Shown here piece after piece: positions 4,812 to 24,232 of a stretch of 25,174 nt of DNA. The notes under the pieces are model-generated. The model made no database searches. It was not told the origin of the DNA and was given only the letters and a program-made list of their open reading frames with translations. Made by a program: the position numbers and the translations under genes. How positions within the stretch are numbered: position 1 is the stretch's first letter; every line of letters starts with the position of its first letter. The DNA comes from a virus: positions 1 to 25,174 of IMG/VR virus record IMGVR_UViG_3300031773_000036; one strand, 5' to 3'.

Positions 4812-5170
4812 AAGCAATCAAAATTCTGTTTCTTGTAGTCCTCGCAATTGTAGCGATCCCCGTCGGGATTGTTTACTCGTTTGGTGAGTCGCTTTACTTT
4901 ATCGCCTCAGATATCCTCAAAAGCATTTGGAGGGCTATATACGACTTCTTTCGTGACGTGTCGATAATTGTATCGGTCACCGCATCAAAGTTCCTCAATC
5001 GGCTTCTAATGGATTCGGGCATACCTTTTGGGAATCATTCCGTTTCGGCTGTCCTGGGAGCCAACCAACGAGAGAACACTCTAACCGGTCTCGGGTTGTG
5101 GCTTACTTTGTTACTCAACAGCATTGAAGAGAACCATTGCCGCAAGGCATCCGAACGCGCAGGGATATGA
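4808..5170 (+). CDS. Small membrane protein of unknown function
   Basis: A 120-residue protein with an N-terminal hydrophobic segment at residues 4-25 (KILFLVVLAIVAIPVGIVYS), probably a membrane anchor or signal, and a second amphipathic stretch at about 33-65. The C-terminal half carries GNHSVSAVLGANQ and a LLLNSIEENHCRKA end, a pattern I associate with uncharacterised small proteins in Bacteroidota phage tail modules. It overlaps the upstream gene by ATGA and the downstream gene by ATGA. A role in membrane interaction during injection, or in lysis, is possible but nothing in the sequence proves it. Codon use returns here to the CTC/TCG-rich phage norm. Confidence 0.65.
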   Translation: MKAIKILFLVVLAIVAIPVGIVYSFGESLYFIASDILKSIWRAIYDFFRDVSIIVSVTASKFLNRLLMDSGIPFGNHSVSAVLGANQRENTLTGLGLWLTLLLNSIEENHCRKASERAGI

Positions 5171-5727
5171 GCAAAGTCAACGAGACACTCATCGCCTTCG
5201 CAGATGATATCCTCAAGAGTGCAAAGCGGCACCTCGGAGGACGTAGGATCGGAAAGAATAAGAATTACGGAGTCGCAACGGGTACTCTCAAGCGGTCACT
5301 CAATTACCGCGTCCGGGTACGTGGCAACGAGATTCGAGAGATCAGCTTCGGAGCCAAAGGCAAGGCGAAAAAATACGCTCCCTTTATTCATTTTGGAGTG
5401 AACGGCACCCGCAAGAATCAAGGGTCTCCCTTCACGTTTCGCAAGCAACCACCCTCCTCGGTATTTGTGAAGTGGATGAAAGCCAAAGGGATAAAGCTCA
5501 GAGATGAGAAGGGACGATTCAAGAAACGAACGGAGTCGAACATTCAATCGGCTGCTTTCCTCATGGCTCGAGCGGTCAAACGTAAGGGAATCGTAGGACT
5601 TCGGTTTTATGAGAAAGCATATACAGCCGTTTCCAAACGATACACGAAGAAACTCGGAGCAGCATTCGCGGAAGATATCGCGGGTAAATTCAAGGCAAAC
5701 CTCGGAAACATAACGATCAAGAACTAA
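5167..5727 (+). CDS. HK97 gp10-like tail-completion/neck protein
   Basis: The protein has 186 residues if started at the ATG that forms an ATGA overlap with the previous stop; an in-frame upstream ATG at 5137 lies inside the previous gene and is not preferred. It is very basic (many Lys/Arg, for example DEKGRFKKRTESN). It shows the layout of HK97-gp10 type head-tail proteins: an N-terminal helix, GTLKRSLNYRVRV, then YAPFIHFGVNGTRK, where these families place a conserved aromatic-rich 'Y...E/HFG' strand, then C-terminal helices ending KRYTKKLGAAFAEDIA. Such proteins sit at the neck and help join or close the tail. The family call is from pattern; confidence is moderate. Confidence 0.65.
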   Translation: MSKVNETLIAFADDILKSAKRHLGGRRIGKNKNYGVATGTLKRSLNYRVRVRGNEIREISFGAKGKAKKYAPFIHFGVNGTRKNQGSPFTFRKQPPSSVFVKWMKAKGIKLRDEKGRFKKRTESNIQSAAFLMARAVKRKGIVGLRFYEKAYTAVSKRYTKKLGAAFAEDIAGKFKANLGNITIKN

Positions 5728-6983
5728 TGGCTCAATTTGACGCAGCACCCTCAGAGAATTGGATACCCGCAGGAAGAAAGCTGGTCTTTACCCTTGTCCC
5801 GGATCAAGTCATTGACGATGATTTTCGTTATATCGTGCAAGTGGAAGAGAACGGGACGAACATCTCGAAGATTTACCTCACTCCGAATCCAGCGGATAAC
5901 GCGTTCTTTGATTTATCCGAAGTAATATCGGGGCGAGTTGAAGTTGATTCTTTGAAGTACAACACGACCTCAACGATTCACTCGTTGCATAACAAGATGT
6001 TCACTCGGTCAAACGACAATATGAAGAGATATCGCGTTCTCATCGGACACTGGGACGGCACTTCCGAAGAGTTAGCCGAAGACGCTTCTTCATATTATTA
6101 CCACTTCGACGGATACGAGCAACTTTCCCAAGGGTTAGACCCTTCGTTCTCGGATTATTACGGCACGAATGCAAATAAGAAAGTATGGTTGACGGATCGC
6201 ATACCCTCGAATAACGTCATCGAAGTAAGTGCAGGGATTGAAGATAATGGAGTTGCAGCGTTTATCAATAGCGATGACACCGGCTCCGCAATTGTCAACC
6301 TCACCATCAAAATTTATGACACTCTCGGGAGCTTGGAAACCACTTTGACTTACACGATCAACTCAACGAACGGAGGTCTCGTCCCTACCACCACATGGAG
6401 CGATTCTAACAACGACGCGAGCCTTTTGTATGCTTATGTATATCCGGCTTCGTTTGGTGCTCTCACAACGGCTCTGAATAACGTGGTGGAGGGTTGGGAT
6501 TATTACGATGTGATACCCGCTTCGACAGGAGGCCCGGTAGGCAATACGCTCCGCATCCGTAACAATTGCAGGAACACAAAGAACGAGCCTGTTCAATTGG
6601 GTTGGGCGAACACTCGGGGCGGGTGGGATTACCTCCGTTTTGACGGGAAGAAACAGAAGACCGTAACCCGCGAAGAGAAGACATACCGAAAGATAGTCGG
6701 GGATTATAGCGGAGCGCAATTCGAACTCGCTTCCAGTGCACGCCAAATTAAGCCGTATCAACTCGAGGCGAAAGAAACCTATCAACTCAACAGCGTTCTC
6801 ACCATTGAGGAGGTGACGTTGCTTCAATACTGCATGAGGTCGAAGAATGTCATGGCACGAATCGACGGGACTTGGGTTCCTGTAACCATCCAAACCAACT
6901 CGATGCAAATCGAAGAGGAGACGGTCTCGAAGGTGTTCATCACTTCGTTCAATGTAGAACTCGCACAAATTATCCGATGCTAA
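5727..6983 (+). CDS. Tail/baseplate structural protein
   Basis: This 418-residue protein has no enzyme motif and looks like a beta-rich virion component. The N-terminus (MAQFDAAPSENWIPAGRK, then a VPDQVIDDDFRYIVQVEENG strand pair) is of the type found in one conserved Bacteroidota phage tail protein that precedes the larger tail-tip protein, as it does here. The middle has aromatic-rich strands (ASSYYYHFDGYEQ) and a helix with WANTRGGWDYLRFDGKK; the C-terminus (KVFITSFNVELAQIIRC) ends in Cys. The start is coupled to the previous stop (TAATG). The next gene starts six bases before this stop. The role, likely at the distal tail or baseplate, is inferred from position between the gp10-like gene and the tail-tip and tape measure genes. 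Confidence 0.6.
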   Translation: MAQFDAAPSENWIPAGRKLVFTLVPDQVIDDDFRYIVQVEENGTNISKIYLTPNPADNAFFDLSEVISGRVEVDSLKYNTTSTIHSLHNKMFTRSNDNMKRYRVLIGHWDGTSEELAEDASSYYYHFDGYEQLSQGLDPSFSDYYGTNANKKVWLTDRIPSNNVIEVSAGIEDNGVAAFINSDDTGSAIVNLTIKIYDTLGSLETTLTYTINSTNGGLVPTTTWSDSNNDASLLYAYVYPASFGALTTALNNVVEGWDYYDVIPASTGGPVGNTLRIRNNCRNTKNEPVQLGWANTRGGWDYLRFDGKKQKTVTREEKTYRKIVGDYSGAQFELASSARQIKPYQLEAKETYQLNSVLTIEEVTLLQYCMRSKNVMARIDGTWVPVTIQTNSMQIEEETVSKVFITSFNVELAQIIRC

Positions 6984-16830: not shown

Positions 16831-16955
16831 GAAAGAGCCGAAAAGAAAATATCACCTTATTGAAAAAGTTCCTCGATGACCTCGACAGAAATAACCTTCC
16901 TACTCCTCCCAAGCGCAATCGCAATAGTAGCGGTATGGGTAAACCTAAACCGTGA
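16827..16955 (+). CDS. Small basic protein overlapping a membrane gene
   Basis: This encodes a 42-residue very basic peptide (MRKSRKENITLLKKFLDDLD then Asn/Pro/Lys-rich). Its ATGA start overlaps the connector stop exactly as in most real gene pairs here. A 20-residue helix is followed by a disordered tail. It shares 80 bases with the +1-frame gene at 16876, so one or both are real. The coupling supports this one; the membrane/coiled-coil layout supports the other. Function unknown. Confidence 0.45.
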   Translation: MRKSRKENITLLKKFLDDLDRNNLPTPPKRNRNSSGMGKPKP

Positions 16956-17076
16956 AATTGAAAAGTTGAAGGGGCGCATCATCCGTGTGGAATCCGATAA
17001 AGACGAACTCAAAGACATGATGAAGGAAGTCGTCAAAGCAGTTCACAAAATCGAGTTAATGCTTGCGGAGCGATGA
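16876..17076 (+). CDS. Small membrane protein with coiled coil (lysis region)
   Basis: A 66-residue protein: residues 5-23 (EITFLLLPSAIAIVAVWVNL) are a membrane helix, and the remainder (NREIEKLKGRIIRVESDKD then KDMMKEVVKAVHKIELML) is a charged coiled coil. This is the usual layout of small lysis-region or tail-associated membrane proteins of Bacteroidota phages, and could act as a spanin-like or holin-accessory protein. It overlaps the upstream small gene in another frame by 80 bases and the M15 peptidase by ATGA. Its job is not proven; the context of peptidase and holin-like genes makes lysis likely. Confidence 0.65.
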   Translation: MTSTEITFLLLPSAIAIVAVWVNLNREIEKLKGRIIRVESDKDELKDMMKEVVKAVHKIELMLAER

Positions 17077-17444
17077 GGCACTTCAAGCTCAGAGAATTCG
17101 ATTCACCCGATGCACCCGGCTCGGGTCGTATGATGGACAGAGGCTTTCTTCGTTTGCTTGATGAAGCTCGGGATTGCGCTTCCATTCCGTTTCATATTTC
17201 TTCGGGCTTTCGCACGGTTGATTACAACCGCGAACTCATCGACAGAGGGTTACCCGCTTCCCGGAACTCTTCGCACCTCCTCGGGCTTGCCGCAGATATA
17301 GAGGTCACCAATTCACAAGAACGATTTATCATCATCGATGCGTTGATGGAAGTTGGTATAACGCGCATTGGAATTGGAAAAAATTTCATTCATTGCGATA
17401 TCGACGAAATGAAACCCGAAAATCGAATATGGACATATGTATGA
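17073..17444 (+). CDS. M15-family peptidase, probable endolysin
   Basis: The protein has 123 residues and matches the D-alanyl-D-alanine carboxypeptidase (M15/VanY-like) fold: SSGFRTVDYNRELIDRG (about 43-59), then SSHLLGLAADIE with His68 and Asp75, and FIHCDID with His107. His68, Asp75 and His107 are the expected zinc ligands. Such enzymes cleave the peptide of murein. No signal peptide is seen, so export would need the holin. It is coupled to the upstream membrane gene and overlaps the phosphoesterase by eight bases. Its size is typical for Bacteroidota phage M15 lysins. The role as the endolysin is inferred from the neighbouring holin-like gene. Confidence 0.85.
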   Translation: MRHFKLREFDSPDAPGSGRMMDRGFLRLLDEARDCASIPFHISSGFRTVDYNRELIDRGLPASRNSSHLLGLAADIEVTNSQERFIIIDALMEVGITRIGIGKNFIHCDIDEMKPENRIWTYV

Positions 17445-18285
17445 TTTAATTACCAAAGACCGAGATATCCACGTCCTCCCGTTCGACTTTGAAAACACCG
17501 AAGACGTAAAGAGCGTTTATCTGCTCTCAGACATACACTTCGATTCCGTTAAGTGTGACCGCAAACTCTTATTCAAACACCTCGACAGAGCCAAAGAAGA
17601 GAACGCGGTTGTTTTGATTCTGGGCGATTTGTACGATTTAATGAATATGAAGTTCGATCCGCGCGGCTCTTACGATTCATTGCGACCAGAACTCAAAGCG
17701 ATGGCGTATATCGATGAGGTTATAAAGGACTGCACCGATAAGCTCGAGCCGTATAAAGATATTATCAAGCTCATTGGACAGGGTAACCACGAGACCAACA
17801 TAACCAAACGACACGGGGTCGATCCCATTCAACGAACGGTAGGCATTCTCAACGCCAACGGAGGGAATATGATTGCGGGTTATTACGCGGGATGGGTCGT
17901 TATTAAATGCAGCCGTAACGGCAAGGGAGGGAGGAAGAGCTTTCCGCTTCATTATCATCACGGGTACGGAGGCAACGCCAAACGCTCGAAAGGTGTTTTG
18001 AATGTGGATATAGATATGAAAGATTATCCGCAGGCGGTTATCATTGCACGCGGTCACACCCATCAGAAGTGGTATGTCCCTGTCATGCGCGACGTACTCA
18101 CCTCCAACTTCAACCACGGACAAGAAACGGTTCATGTTGTTCAGACGGGATCCTACAAGAAGAAAGACCGTTCCATTGGGTGGGAAGTTGAGAAGGGCTT
18201 CTCGGTACCTCGGTTGGGCGGTTGGAAGTTTTCAATCAAGCCTCACGGGCAATCATACGAGATACAATGCGAGGAACTCCACTAA
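17437..18285 (+). CDS. Calcineurin-like metallophosphoesterase
   Basis: The 282-residue protein carries the full set of metallophosphoesterase motifs: DIH (Asp32, His34) in LLSDIHFD, GDLYD (Asp64), GNHE (Asn117, His118), HYHHGYGG (about 172-179) and GHTH (207-209). These bind two metal ions and hydrolyse phosphomono- or phosphodiesters. Neither signal peptide nor membrane segment is seen. It lies between the M15 peptidase and the holin-like gene, overlapping both. Substrate is unknown: DNA or RNA ends or cyclic nucleotides are possible, so it could act in DNA metabolism or against nucleotide-based host defence, but the sequence alone does not say. It is an unusual companion for lysis genes. 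Confidence 0.87.
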   Translation: MYDLITKDRDIHVLPFDFENTEDVKSVYLLSDIHFDSVKCDRKLLFKHLDRAKEENAVVLILGDLYDLMNMKFDPRGSYDSLRPELKAMAYIDEVIKDCTDKLEPYKDIIKLIGQGNHETNITKRHGVDPIQRTVGILNANGGNMIAGYYAGWVVIKCSRNGKGGRKSFPLHYHHGYGGNAKRSKGVLNVDIDMKDYPQAVIIARGHTHQKWYVPVMRDVLTSNFNHGQETVHVVQTGSYKKKDRSIGWEVEKGFSVPRLGGWKFSIKPHGQSYEIQCEELH

Positions 18286-18695
18286 AAGAAACAAAGCTCG
18301 GGCAATGGTTCAAAACAAAAGCACCGAAGGTCTTCGACCTCATCGGGGAGATTGTCCCAGGTGCGGACGCTCTGAAGGCGATTGGTGCTCTAATCGACAA
18401 CACCGAAACCAGCGACGAAGAAAAGATAAAAGCGAAGCTGTTGATGGAGGAGATCGCAAATGCGGACAGAGCCAACGCGAGGAATCGTGAGATTGAGATA
18501 ACAAAGAGCCTCGGTCAGCGGGATTGGATGCAAGTATTCGTCGGTTCGGCTGCTATGATTATCGGTATCGTCATGGTTGTTTGGGCGAAGACGGGAGTCG
18601 AGGATAAGGAAATCTTCTTCCACATCCTCGGGTTCGCAGAAGGTACCCTCGTCGGTCAGGTTGTAAATTATTATTTCGGTTCCGCTAAAAATTAG
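18267..18695 (+). CDS. Holin-like membrane protein
   Basis: From ATG 18267 the protein has 142 residues; an upstream start at 18222 would deepen the overlap with the phosphoesterase and is not preferred. The N-terminal half is helical and charged: GQWFKTKAPKVFDLIGEIVP, GALIDNTETSDEEKIKAK, and NADRANARNREIEITK. Two membrane helices follow, at about 88-107 (MQVFVGSAAMIIGIVMVVWA) and 117-138. The layout resembles the GTA-type 3TM holin family. It ends the late region and is followed by a strong terminator. Expected role: a membrane pore that releases the M15 enzyme. Confidence 0.75.
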   Translation: MRGTPLKETKLGQWFKTKAPKVFDLIGEIVPGADALKAIGALIDNTETSDEEKIKAKLLMEEIANADRANARNREIEITKSLGQRDWMQVFVGSAAMIIGIVMVVWAKTGVEDKEIFFHILGFAEGTLVGQVVNYYFGSAKN

Positions 18696-18749
18696 TATAT
18701 TCGGGTTCTGTTTTGTTAGGGTATAGACACCCATTGTTACGTTTGTAGG

Positions 18750-18783
18750 GAGGGAGGCTCAACGGGGCTTCCCTCTTTTTTTT
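18750..18783 (+). terminator. Strong terminator closing the late genes
   Basis: Stem 18750-18760 (GAGGGAGGCTC) pairs with 18765-18775 (GGGCTTCCCTC, with G-U pairs) around loop AACG, followed by eight T (18776-18783). It separates the late region from the second small promoter unit. Confidence 0.93.
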
Positions 18784-18815
18784 GCGTAAAAAAGAAAAAT
18801 AATTTGTTTTCATGC

Positions 18816-18845
18816 TTGGATAACGAAATAAGTTGCGTATCTTTA
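18816..18845 (+). promoter_or_regulatory. Bacteroidota-type promoter P2, twin of P1
   Basis: TTG at 18816-18818 is 19 bases from TATCTTTA at 18838-18845. It shares 25 of 30 positions with 311-340, again with an A-rich upstream stretch containing GTTTT, and is therefore likely read by the same polymerase form or bound by the same regulator. Confidence 0.82.
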
Positions 18846-18873
18846 CACCATGACAAACGCAAACAACACTACC

Positions 18874-20786: not shown

Positions 20787-21458
20787 ATGAATGGAATATG
20801 GATACCCCAGGAGATTTGGTTGTTGGATGACCTCTCTCCCATGCAAAGAATTCTCCTCTCTAAAATTCACGCGCTCAGTCACAAGGACGGATCGTGTTGG
20901 GCGGGAGATGAGTTCCTTGCTGAGTCTCTTGGGGTCTCTTCTCAATACATCCGGAAGATGCGCAAAGACCTTTGCGAAACCGAGCACATTAAATGTGAAG
21001 GATACGGACAACGAAGGAAGATGACTGTCCTCATAGAAGCAACTAATGGAACAAGCAACGATAGGAACAAGCAACAATCGTTGCAAGAAGAAGCAACTAT
21101 CGGCGCAAAAGTTGCAACTACTGTTGCAAAAGTTGCAACTACTGTTGCGCAGAGTAAAGAGAAGAGTATAGATAAGAGTAAAGAGTTAGTAAAGAGAGTG
21201 CGTTTCAAGGAGCCAAGTTTGGAAGAAGCGATGGAATCGTTCGAACTTGCGGGATCAACCAGAGACGAAGGAGAGAAATTTTGGAATTACTACGAATCAA
21301 ACGGATGGAGAGCGGGCAGAAACAAGATGAAGAATTGGAATGCAGCCGCTCGAAATTGGATAAAACGAAGCAATGAATTTACAACGAACAAAACAGGAGC
21401 TCCAAAGCAACCAAGCAAAGACCAGCTTACAGCATATCTCAAGCACGGGCATTTATAA
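20787..21458 (+). CDS. Replication initiator/helicase-loader-like protein
   Basis: A 223-residue protein of the DnaD/lambda O-like type. Residues about 15-82 form a winged helix-turn-helix (LSPMQRILLSKIHAL, then GDEFLAESLGVSSQYIRKMR). Residues about 85-140 are a repetitive, low-complexity linker (AKVATTVAKVATTVAQ) encoded by the iteron-like DNA. The C-terminus (about 144-194; EEAMESFELAG, then FWNYYESNGWRAGRNKMKNW) resembles the DnaD-like C-terminal domain of replisome organisers. It would bind the origin and load the host helicase, because no phage polymerase or helicase is seen. ATG 20787 follows the -7 box at 20774. The end overlaps the next gene by 86 bases. Confidence 0.75.
   Translation: MNGIWIPQEIWLLDDLSPMQRILLSKIHALSHKDGSCWAGDEFLAESLGVSSQYIRKMRKDLCETEHIKCEGYGQRRKMTVLIEATNGTSNDRNKQQSLQEEATIGAKVATTVAKVATTVAQSKEKSIDKSKELVKRVRFKEPSLEEAMESFELAGSTRDEGEKFWNYYESNGWRAGRNKMKNWNAAARNWIKRSNEFTTNKTGAPKQPSKDQLTAYLKHGHL
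21039..21199 (+). other. Candidate replication origin inside the initiator gene
   Basis: The pentamer GCAAC or its complement GTTGC occurs 11 times between 21039 and 21148, including two 10-bp palindromes AGTTGCAACT and a pair of GGAACAAGCAAC repeats (21048, 21064). It is followed by an AT-rich, strongly purine-biased stretch (21149-21199). Iterons plus a purine-asymmetric AT-rich segment within the gene for the initiator is the layout of lambda ori. Confidence 0.6.
21105..21146 (+). repeat. 21-bp tandem direct repeat (iteron-like)
   Basis: Two perfect adjacent copies (21105-21125 and 21126-21146) begin GCAAAAGTTGC and each contain the palindrome AGTTGCAACT. They encode the repeated AKVATTV. 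The length of 21 bases keeps the reading frame, so the repeat could come from duplication in frame. Confidence 0.85.
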
Positions 21459-21939: not shown

Positions 21940-22309
21940 CAAGATATTCTCCCAATTCATCCGGCTGCGTGCGGTCAACGATGAAGGGTGGGGAGAGTGT
22001 TTTACTTGCGGACGCTTGCGCCATTACAAAAGCGCAGACGCTGGTCATTTCATGGTGCGGCAAAAGATGCCCACCCGGTTTGATATCATGAACGTACAAT
22101 TCCAGTGTAAAAAATGCAACGGATTTGAAGGGGGTGCACAATACGAATTCGCTTTGAAGTTGGATGAGGTATACGGAGAAGGGACAGCGGATCGCCTTGT
22201 TCGCTTGAGCAACGAAACGAAGCGATTCAGCGTTCACGAATTGGAAGCACTTTGCAAAATATACAAGAAGAAAGTCGATGAACTCAGGAAGTCGAAAGGG
22301 TTGGAATAG
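21908..22309 (+). CDS. ninG: NinG-like (Rap) recombination nuclease
   Basis: The 133-residue protein has the NinG signature: C31-F-T-C34, DAGHFMVRQKMPTRFD with His47, NVQFQCKKCN with C67 and C70, and the following basic helices. In lambda, NinG (Rap) is an endonuclease acting on Holliday-junction-like branched DNA in phage recombination. Here it lies between the replication genes and the sigma-like gene. All zinc-type cysteines are present and the length is shorter than lambda NinG, as in many Bacteroidota phage versions. It overlaps both neighbours by 32 bases. Confidence 0.82.
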   Translation: MTVAKAKAKLDKIFSQFIRLRAVNDEGWGECFTCGRLRHYKSADAGHFMVRQKMPTRFDIMNVQFQCKKCNGFEGGAQYEFALKLDEVYGEGTADRLVRLSNETKRFSVHELEALCKIYKKKVDELRKSKGLE

Positions 22310-22763
22310 CTTCTTAACGAAGCACTATTCAAAACTTGTTCGCATCGCTCGACGATGGACGGACAGCCCTTCCGACCTTGTACATCACACCTATCTTCGA
22401 TGCATCGACAAACGCTTCCCCGATGGGGATAACGAGACCGCTCTCGGGTACTTTGTGAAAGCGATGTATAACGAAGCCACGAGAGGAAAATTCAAAGAGA
22501 TATATCACGTAACAGATGCCGACCCCAAAGAACAAGCCTTCGAAAACGATTGGACAAAAGCAATCCAACGAGAACAAATGCAACTCATCCTTGACCGCCT
22601 CTCCTGGTTTGATCGAACCATCTTCTCTCTATACCTGCAAGGGTGGAACATGGCTGACGTATCTCGACGGTCTAGCATTGGAGAATCGACCCTTTATCGC
22701 TCACTACACATCACCCGAAAAATCCTGAAAGATGTTCTTCGTAACGGCTCAAAAGAGGACTGA
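22278..22763 (+). CDS. Sigma-70-like RNA polymerase sigma factor
   Basis: The 161-residue protein resembles the small sigma factors of Bacteroidota phages. Residues about 15-70 fit region 2 (HYSKLVRIARRWTD, PSDLVHHTYLRCI, and a GYFVKAMYNEATRG end). Residues about 100-155 fit region 4 with a helix-turn-helix (FSLYLQGWNMADVSRRSSIG, then ESTLYRSLHITRKIL). Factors of this kind redirect host polymerase, here perhaps to late or duplicated promoters. The ATG at 22278 overlaps NinG by 32 bases, and its own end overlaps the next gene by 32. Sequence similarity to region 2 is loose, so a purely DNA-binding role is an alternative. Confidence 0.68.
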   Translation: MNSGSRKGWNSFLTKHYSKLVRIARRWTDSPSDLVHHTYLRCIDKRFPDGDNETALGYFVKAMYNEATRGKFKEIYHVTDADPKEQAFENDWTKAIQREQMQLILDRLSWFDRTIFSLYLQGWNMADVSRRSSIGESTLYRSLHITRKILKDVLRNGSKED

Positions 22764-23315: not shown

Positions 23316-23533
23316 GAAACGCAAGAAAAGCCCTCCTCCATGCGAAGAACTTCCTTCTCATCACAGAGAATGACAAAGCAATTCGACTCCATGCCGGAGA
23401 TGACCCCGCGACTTTACTTCTAACCTTAGCCGTTCACAACGATGAATTCCGATATACCCTCGAAGCCGTCTTGGAACAAGCAAATGAAACTCTCAGCGAT
23501 AAGGGAGAATCCCCGGAATCCGAGGACGATTAA
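23312..23533 (+). CDS. Small hypothetical protein
   Basis: A 73-residue protein (MRNARKALLHAKNFLLITEN...) with a helical body and an acidic C-terminus (SDKGESPESEDD). It is coupled to the previous gene by ATGA and overlaps the ParB-like gene by 50 bases. No family is recognised. Confidence 0.55.
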   Translation: MRNARKALLHAKNFLLITENDKAIRLHAGDDPATLLLTLAVHNDEFRYTLEAVLEQANETLSDKGESPESEDD

Positions 23534-23888
23534 AGAGGAGAGGTTCGACAAGCTCGTTCAATCCATCCGAGAGTTCCCCGAGATGCTCCAAGCACGACCC
23601 ATCGTTGTCAACCCCGACATGGTTATAATCGGAGGGAACATGAGATTCAAAGCGTGCAAAGCAGCGGGACTCAAAGAGGCTCCCGTCTATGTCGCTACAT
23701 GGGGCGAATTGAAAGACCGAGAGTTCACGATAAAGGATAACACCAACGCAGGAGAACACGATATGGATATCCTCGCGAACGAATGGGATGCAACCGAACT
23801 CAATGACTGGATGCTCAACGTATGGGATCCACAAGAAGAACCTGAAGAGAAAGAAGAGAAAGTGAAATGCGAATTATGCGGTAAGTAA
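23484..23888 (+). CDS. ParB-like nuclease-domain protein
   Basis: The 134-residue protein resembles the ParB/Srx-fold domain: KLSAIRENPRNPR at the start, FDKLVQSIREFPEMLQARPI, IIGGNMRFKACKAAG (50-62) and the later REFTIKDNTNAGEHD. In many Bacteroidota phages this domain precedes or is fused to a DNA methyltransferase; none is seen here. Residues past 110 are acidic (EEPEEKEEK) and end with a CxxC pair (C129, C132), which may be a residual zinc knuckle. ATG 23484 is chosen because the longer start at 23442 lacks the typical beginning. It is coupled to the small terminase gene by TAATG. It could act in DNA processing for packaging, but the nuclease activity is unproven. Confidence 0.7.
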   Translation: MKLSAIRENPRNPRTIKEERFDKLVQSIREFPEMLQARPIVVNPDMVIIGGNMRFKACKAAGLKEAPVYVATWGELKDREFTIKDNTNAGEHDMDILANEWDATELNDWMLNVWDPQEEPEEKEEKVKCELCGK

Positions 23889-24232
23889 TGGAAGCACTTA
23901 AGACCAACACATCCAACACTAAAAAAGAAGCGATGCTCGAAGCCCTCGAGAAGTCGCTCGGTATTGTATCGACAGCCGCGAAGATGGTTGGGATTGATCG
24001 CTCGACTCATTACGCATGGCTAAAAGCAGACGAGGAATATAAGAGCGCGGTTCAATCCATTCAAGACAGCGTTCTCGACTTTGCAGAATCGCACCTCTAC
24101 AAACTCGTAAAGGAAGGCAACCCAGCAGCGACGATATTCTTCTTGAAGACCAAAGGCAAGAAGCGCGGATATATCGAACGGCAAGAGATAGAGGTCACCG
24201 AGAAGAAGCCGCTCTCATGGCTCGATGAGTAA
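23888..24232 (+). CDS. terS: Terminase small subunit
   Basis: The 114-residue protein lies directly before the large terminase and overlaps its start by eight bases. Residues about 24-46 are a helix-turn-helix (LGIVSTAAKMVGIDRSTHYA, then WLK), the usual DNA-binding part of small terminases. The middle is a helix hairpin (VLDFAESHLYKLVKEGNPAA) and IFFLKTKGKKRGY is a typical end motif. It recognises the packaging site and hands DNA to the large subunit. It is short for the family but complete. Confidence 0.85.
   Translation: MEALKTNTSNTKKEAMLEALEKSLGIVSTAAKMVGIDRSTHYAWLKADEEYKSAVQSIQDSVLDFAESHLYKLVKEGNPAATIFFLKTKGKKRGYIERQEIEVTEKKPLSWLDE

Follow-up and report, generated by a model that had tools for sequence, protein, structure and literature searches.

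Results

A metallophosphoesterase gene lies between an endolysin gene and a holin-like gene

The DNA analyzed here (the window) is the viral record IMGVR_UViG_3300031773_000036, a stretch of 25,174 bases of linear class that lacks end repeats and is possibly a fragment. At positions 17437 to 18285 it encodes a calcineurin-like metallophosphoesterase (MPE), which is set in the gene order small membrane protein, M15 endolysin, MPE, holin-like gene and terminator-like hairpin. The features considered are the following.

16876..17076, plus strand: hol1, a small membrane protein of 66 amino acids, holin- or spanin-like, with an N-terminal hydrophobic segment followed by a charged stretch
17073..17444, plus strand: M15 (Peptidase_M15_3) endolysin of 123 amino acids, from matches to PF08291 and phrog_894
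17437..18285, plus strand: calcineurin-like MPE of the phrog_7339 group, 282 amino acids, from PF00149, phrog_7339 and motifs
18267..18695, plus strand: hol2, a holin-like protein of 142 amino acids with an ATG at 18267; the holin label is weak
18747..18785, plus strand: terminator-like hairpin of 14 pairs with a T run, after the lysis block; a match to consensus only
20787..21458: replication-initiation-like gene, among the replication-like genes that come after the hairpin

The MPE open reading frame (ORF) begins with ATG, encodes 282 amino acids and has no internal stop. Its product carries four motifs (S31-D32-I-H34, G63-D64-L-Y-D67, G116-N117-H118-E119 and G206-H207-T-H209) and scores 24.9 bits against PF00149, above the cut-off of 21.5; in a six-frame search of the window, the same model gave 21.2 bits, slightly below that cut-off. 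All 29 members of an MPE alignment matched PF00149 at E ≤ 0.01, and D32, H34, D64, N117, H118, H175, H207 and H209 were invariant in all 29, the set expected of a two-metal calcineurin-type site. The initial annotation had described a complete calcineurin-like enzyme, and the intact frame, the motifs and the Pfam score agree with that description. The protein also matched phrog_7339 (E = 1.8e-20, residues 20 to 245), whose name, "DNA repair exonuclease," is a label only. An AlphaFold model built from the 29-member alignment had a mean predicted local distance difference test score (pLDDT) of 85.9 and a predicted template modeling score (pTM) of 0.87. Nothing in NCBIfam came near any cut-off, and PADLOC, which lists defense genes, gave no match. 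No peptidoglycan-cleaving domain was matched in Pfam or PHROG; the MPE is a member of the lysis cassette by location only. A simple Kyte-Doolittle scan found no hydrophobic or signal-like segment, and the protein should therefore be cytosolic until the membrane is opened.

The M15 gene and the MPE gene overlap by 8 nucleotides (nt), and the MPE gene and hol2 overlap by 19 nt. The endolysin call is firm (PF08291 at 36.3 bits against a cut-off of 23.2; phrog_894 endolysin at E = 4.3e-19). Among the small flanking genes, hol1 has weak matches to phrog_1296 (holin, E = 0.0043) and phrog_739 (Rz-like spanin, E = 0.03), while hol2 is weakly labeled by phrog_3427 ("holin," E = 0.0035, residues 35 to 78 only), has no Pfam match above cut-off and shows one hydrophobic segment, near residue 86, in a simple Kyte-Doolittle scan. 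The position between an M15 peptidase and a holin-like gene, as first proposed from inspection of the window, is thus borne out by the overlaps, with a holin label that is weak. The hairpin at 18747 is the longest of nine terminator-like sites between 15500 and 20500; 9 sites per 5 kb were observed, compared to 5.9 in shuffled sequence.

The MPE gene is linked to lysis genes across many loci

Scans of viral contigs with three differently seeded queries confirmed 134, 450 and 477 MPE relatives, and a fourth, narrower query confirmed 114. The samples from viral scans consisted of the best 80 of these 134, 450, 477 and 114 relatives and the best 80 of at least 583, at least 576 and at least 530 relatives; because of this selection they lean toward near relatives, and the loci are not independent. 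A set of 173 MPE loci was dereplicated, and the 132 loci that extended 900 nt or more upstream and 700 nt or more downstream entered a context count spanning 1.3 kb upstream and 0.9 kb downstream of the MPE. Genes were classified with hidden Markov models (HMMs) built from the window's own neighbors plus those of loci L034 and L068; of the resulting families, hol1 and hol2 are backed only weakly by outside matches, no outside support was established for HOLa and HOLb, and HOL3 matched nothing in Pfam or PHROG.

An M15 or Amidase_2 endolysin was found close to the MPE in 126 of the 132 loci, and a lysis-class gene, as defined by these HMMs, flanked the MPE on both sides in 111, in keeping with the placement among lysis genes given in the initial annotation. 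The nearest classified upstream gene was M15 at 106 loci, an amidase at 15 and a small holin-like gene at 5, with none at 6; hol1 stood directly ahead of M15 in 96 of the 132. The holin-like families beside the MPE vary from locus to locus, so a fixed protein partner is unlikely. Five of the six loci without an endolysin in the count are varied: in L082 the upstream side includes an M15_4 endolysin at a distance of about 1.1 kb, L084 (Bacillus phage Staley) has a SleB-like endolysin about 0.8 kb downstream, L083 has none annotated, the upstream side of L207 is unrecognized, and L085 has an M15-like protein, recognized by eye only and matched by neither Pfam nor PHROG, together with weak matches to Rz-like spanins on the downstream side. 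The sixth, L193, is taken up in the Discussion.

Overlapping HOLb (52 amino acids) and longer HOL3 ORFs, offset by two bases, were observed 3' of the MPE in L067 (5797 to 6170), L081 (5822 to 6192) and L207 (1999 to 2369). The first part of the longer HOL3 ORF is probably a frame artefact, with the HOL3 start lying later.

Endolysin types change and phage backbones differ around a conserved MPE

Among 46 representatives sharing less than 90% identity, M15 lay upstream of the MPE in 33 and an amidase upstream in 7 or downstream in 4; one had the M15-like protein and one had no endolysin. On the MPE tree, for which L082 served as the outgroup, the minimum number of endolysin-type changes was 6 when three states were used and L085, L193 and L082 were not counted, and 7 when two states were used and L085 was treated as M15. 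The starred branches by themselves require at least three (M15 upstream), at least two (amidase upstream) and at least one (amidase downstream) changes. Exact counts are rough, since L082 and L085 are long branches, which may attract, and 17 of the 44 inner branches are drawn open. The MPE appears to have stayed in place while the endolysin type changed about six times.

Comparison of the MPE with structural proteins gave discordant identities. Relative to the window, L034, L035, L037 and L039 are 71 to 80% identical in the MPE, 35 to 37% in the portal and 34 to 36% in the DUF6712 protein, whereas L139 and L121 are 50 to 52% identical in the MPE and 64 to 65% in the portal; L250 and L193 are intermediate (MPE, 52 and 49%; portal, 43 and 42%). 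The simplest reading is that the MPE gene has been exchanged between distant phage backbones, the alternative being that the structural genes were exchanged instead. In L034, L035, L037 and L039 the genes around the MPE are once more of lysis type, Amidase_2 now being downstream. Because the linkage outlasts both replacement of the endolysin and exchange between backbones, a late or lysis-stage role is its natural reading.

Searches were also seeded with the endolysins. M15 endolysins of MPE-carrying loci retrieved 78 further loci (L113 and L155 lie outside this set), of which 16 had an MPE of the window family (14 adjacent and 2 overlapping via over-long ORFs), 12 had a second MPE type judged by motif pattern, and 3 were too short. 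The amidase-seeded search gave 80 loci, with the MPE adjacent in 7 and 5 that were too short.

The family looks viral and is under purifying selection

When 84,980 prokaryote genomes were scanned by pattern, one locus of the MPE family was found, and a profile search of 390 genomes of the order to which that locus belongs returned the same single locus. Given this one locus against the 450 relatives of a single viral-contig scan, the family looks viral. Of 50,697 phage records searched by tblastn, 6 matched the window MPE and 7, two of them additional, matched when the L085 protein was the seed; a viral scan seeded with a Rhodobacteraceae phage protein returned nothing. Ratios of nonsynonymous to synonymous change (dN/dS by the NG86 method) were calculated between the window and each of nine close loci. 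The MPE gave 0.012 to 0.076 in six of these comparisons, with dS saturated in the other three, and the M15 gene gave 0.062 to 0.169 in the seven with unsaturated dS. The MPE is under strong purifying selection.

The portal and capsid proteins of the window are 35.6 and 25% identical to their counterparts in the flavobacterial Nonlabens phage P12024S, and one MPE relative, at 38% identity, is located in a Bacteroidia metagenome-assembled genome, near a long ORF that we take to be PurL-like. On the strength of these two likenesses, the host of the window phage is likely a member of the Bacteroidota.

Elsewhere in the record, the gene at 23442 to 23888 is ParB-like or DNA-methyltransferase-like (phrog_498, E = 3.2e-25; phrog_620, E = 2e-23) and precedes a short ORF and then the large terminase gene, and the gene at 22278 to 22763 encodes a sigma-factor-like, phage-encoded protein (phrog_1740, E = 1.7e-6). 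Positions 18800 to 18850, ahead of the first gene after the hairpin, we presume to be Bacteroidota promoter-like.

A second MPE subfamily often occupies the same slot

A second subfamily, of about 235 amino acids, belongs to the same superfamily as the window MPE and often stands in the same position after the endolysin, but forms a separate PHROG. Membership in phrog_221 was confirmed for L291 and P12024S gp16, the latter also matching phrog_7339 weakly (E = 9.8e-5), and phi14:2 g075, 11b ORF51, Larrie, MEP301 gp11 and Arno160 belong to this subfamily by similarity. Between the two subfamilies there was no meaningful profile similarity (hhalign probability, 4.9%; HMM, 1.7 bits). At 80 loci with an MPE of the phrog_221 type, M15 or amidase lay within 1 kb in 33; the MPE followed M15 and preceded a holin-like gene in 19, with the hol2 family of the window downstream in 9 of those, and this 19 of 80 is not a fair estimate because most of the copies used as seeds came from positions beside M15.

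Several cultured phages carry similar arrangements. In P12024S the order is endolysin, holin, short ORF, MPE and then Erf; in the crAss-like phage phi14:2 it is endolysin, a protein read as spanin-like, and MPE; and in Flavobacterium phage 11b it is a GH19 endolysin, a lipoprotein-like protein (read as spanin-like), a short ORF, MPE and then Erf. Methylophilales phage MEP301 has holin, M15 and MPE on one strand and the Erf and YqaJ genes on the opposite strand, and its MPE matches the second subfamily at 139.5 bits by HMM. The MEP301 report (PMC8024684) treats the MPE (ORF11) and the M15 peptidase (ORF12) in separate paragraphs.

Relatives of the second subfamily were present in 638 phage records, with Klebsiella (267), Escherichia (75) and Pectobacterium (59) phages among them, and a plasmid search with this MPE returned nothing. 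The fold model was weaker (pLDDT, 71.0; pTM, 0.75), and its nearest folds were a mixture of YfcE, 1s3l, Mre11 and LpxH. Mutual exclusion of the two subfamilies was considered and dropped: a PF00149 test gave a second match in 1 of 43 and 1 of 29 records, a test that is not fully sensitive because 3 of the 43 MPE-carrying records gave no match at all. The second match among the 43 came from the 40-kb contig G392 (locus L009; L519 is its positions 24000 to 40311), which contains two sets of structural and lysis genes, with the orders hol1-M15-MPE-hol2 and hol1-M15-MPE2-HOLb, where MPE2 is the second type. The contig may be a chimeric assembly, and only the order of the second cassette was used.

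Discussion

The linkage of the MPE to endolysin genes, the changing endolysins, the exchange between backbones, the presence of a second subfamily in the same slot and the purifying selection lead us to favor, tentatively and with somewhat less than even confidence, a late, cytosolic phosphodiesterase that acts on nucleic acid or nucleotides near lysis. We infer coupled translation, late expression, metal use, the substrate and the benefit as follows. The MPE would be an accessory gene of the lysis cassette in one group of tailed phages, most of which probably infect Bacteroidota, and its translation late in infection would be coupled to that of the endolysin and the holin-like protein. The enzyme would remain cytosolic until the membrane is breached by the holin and would then exit alongside the endolysin. 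At the time of lysis or just ahead of it, two metal ions in its calcineurin-type site would hydrolyze a phosphodiester, most likely one in nucleotides or nucleic acid; the enzyme might, for example, degrade residual DNA, RNA or signaling nucleotides.

Accessory status follows from the many comparable cassettes that lack the gene, which, together with several further observations, weigh against a firm lysis-stage assignment. Neither MPE was present in 47 of the 78 M15-seeded loci, and the MPE was absent from 68 of the 80 amidase-seeded loci. Four loci match the order of MPE cassettes by eye but have no MPE: L359 and L360 read portal-like, DUF6712-like, amidase, HOLb-like and HOL3-like, L309 reads M15 and HOL3-like, and L292 reads hol1-like, M15 and HOLb-like. 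L193 is a true exception to the linkage, with its MPE (4965 to 5804) between what by eye are head-protease-like and scaffold-like genes; an amidase relative (L418) occurs elsewhere on the same contig. For the second subfamily, no M15 or amidase lay within 1 kb at 47 of the 80 loci, and its member in Tenacibaculum phage Larrie adjoins ribonucleotide reductase genes while that in Arno160 (Autographiviridae) stands among DNA-metabolism genes.

The preference for a nucleic acid substrate rests on the PHROG label, the PolD DP1 and Mre11 folds, the in vitro activity of mycobacteriophage A10ZJ24 Gp48 and the DNA-gene contexts in Arno160 and Larrie. The fold comparison speaks on both sides. The exonuclease PolD DP1 was the top row (Z, 15.8; 216 residues; root mean square deviation [rmsd], 3.6), and Mre11 of P. 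furiosus stood 1.7 Z below it (Z, 14.1; 186 residues; rmsd, 3.5). Between them came proteins that count against the proposed substrate, namely, the human Pol delta regulatory subunit, which is not a nuclease (Z, 15.3), LpxH (Z, 15.1; 179 residues; rmsd, 2.9) and the archaeal phosphodiesterase 1s3l (Z, 14.8; 163 residues; rmsd, 2.6). PolD DP1, LpxH, 1s3l and Mre11, all solved MPE structures, come near the window MPE in fold at 16 to 19% identity, and in this model the differences in Z are too small to choose a substrate, PolD DP1 and LpxH being tied; the first place of PolD DP1 was therefore not used as proof of nuclease function. A single-sequence search for solved structures similar to the MPE found none, and both of the PDB profile matches were to N termini of LpxH (E = 0.018 and 0.43), again in disfavor of the proposed substrate. 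Membership in the LpxH family was rejected, with NCBIfam model NF003743 reaching 14 bits against a cut-off of 134 over residues 26 to 68 only. Motif II of Mre11/SbcD is GDxxH, with a His that is needed for exonuclease activity; the window MPE reads GDLYD, and the D67 position is Asp in 29 of 29 aligned proteins, so membership in the Mre11 family is doubtful. The initial annotation had suggested processing of DNA ends, degradation of defense nucleotides or regulation of lysis, guesses that are not separable here because a DNA exonuclease and LpxH are the nearest folds at tied Z.

The most credible of the alternatives, in our judgment still an unlikely one, is a DNA-metabolism enzyme parked at the boundary of late and early genes, which works in replication or recombination and whose place beside lysis genes is a positional habit. 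Such an enzyme would suit P12024S and 11b, where an MPE of the phrog_221 type lies between lysis genes and Erf recombination genes, the surroundings just described for Arno160 and Larrie, the MPE of Vp670, likewise among DNA-metabolism genes (PMC6180450), and the window itself, where the replication-like genes, including that at 20787 to 21458, follow the hairpin. It fits less well with a window MPE that sits inside the cassette, ahead of the last lysis-type gene and the hairpin, with a MEP301 MPE that shares the strand of holin and M15 opposite Erf and YqaJ, and with exchanged MPEs that are found again among lysis-type genes in other backbones. We regard as distinctly improbable an envelope phosphoesterase that is released through the holin lesion and cuts a lipid-linked precursor, lipopolysaccharide phosphate or phospholipid, as a third enzymatic step of lysis in diderms. 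The tight linkage to endolysin and holin-like genes, the diderm nature of the hosts named or implied for six lysis-linked carriers, and LpxH as both a tied nearest fold and the source of the two weak profile matches are what such an enzyme would predict, but the score on the LpxH model is far below its cut-off, the MPE lacks a hydrophobic or signal-like segment, spanin-like genes accompany it in L085 (from weak matches to PHROGs) and in 11b and phi14:2 (read from sequence), and a distant relative in Staley, which has a monoderm host, also lies about 0.8 kb from an endolysin gene. Replacement of spanins by the MPE was considered as well and dropped, given the spanin-like genes alongside it in the same three phages.

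A role in counter-defense is a shade more doubtful still. The MPE would degrade the nucleotide signals, cyclic or linear, on which CBASS, Thoeris, Pycsar or type III CRISPR systems rely, or blunt defense by nucleolysis, and its presence or absence in cassettes of similar order, together with exchange between backbones, suits an accessory weapon. A published phage MPE, Gp48, is reported to have a counter-defense role (PMC12287305), but the same source reports that it acts via damage to host DNA. Enzymes that degrade signals are expected early, whereas this gene lies in the lysis block, and the PADLOC search was negative. The calcineurin-like superfamily includes protein phosphatases, and the MPE adjoins holin-like genes, so that a phosphatase which times lysis by dephosphorylating a holin or a host protein could be imagined; with no NCBIfam protein-phosphatase model matched at E ≤ 0.1 and with neighboring holin-like families that differ between loci, we consider it highly improbable.

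Beyond the favored late phosphodiesterase, a broader and rather unlikely proposal is that many diderm phages have a fourth kind of lysis-cassette protein, an MPE that would be released with the endolysin and whose cutting of phosphodiesters, in envelope phosphate or spilled nucleic acid, would aid lysis or virion release, with two subfamilies recruited separately to the slot beside M15, amidase and GH19 enzymes. Our searches of the open-access literature turned up no paper that describes MPEs as recurring in the lysis cassettes of phages, and a term search of a 2025 survey of viral lytic proteins (PMC12596118) found no phosphoesterase, phosphatase, calcineurin, accessory or phosphodiesterase. 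An enzyme of another chemistry that is both conserved and mobile and stands beside changing endolysins points to an overlooked step late in infection, and the cultured phages P12024S, MEP301, phi14:2 and 11b, with their similar arrangement, make it directly testable. The findings also caution against calling such MPE genes auxiliary metabolic genes, as was done for a calcineurin-like gene that flavophage vB_TgeS_JQ carries about 0.9 kb past its amidase gene (PMC11267871).

Among characterized phage MPEs, Gp48 resembles the window protein in its superfamily. In vitro it acts as a phosphodiesterase and as an Mn-dependent DNase; it also damages the DNA of its host and reportedly counters host defense (PMC12287305). 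It differs in being an early gene (PMC12287305), which tells against the reading proposed here, as does the score of only 3.5 bits that Bxb1 gp47 obtains on the profile of the window family. Bxb1 gp47, part of the alignment of Gp48 relatives in that article, stands among replication-type genes, unlike the window MPE. Because of the early expression and the low score, Gp48 is a precedent for the chemistry and not a close relative. The proteins of Bacillus phages Staley and Stills, named similarly to phrog_7339 ("DNA repair exonuclease"), are 26.4 and 23.6% identical to the window MPE, and the name is an annotation; the Staley gene differs in its location, about 2.4 kb ahead of the large terminase gene and upstream of the SleB-like endolysin gene. 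The usual description of a lysis cassette comprises holin, endolysin and spanins. The window resembles this canonical cassette in its holin-like genes and M15 endolysin, arranged in overlapping order, and differs from it in carrying an extra phosphoesterase between the endolysin and a holin-like gene.

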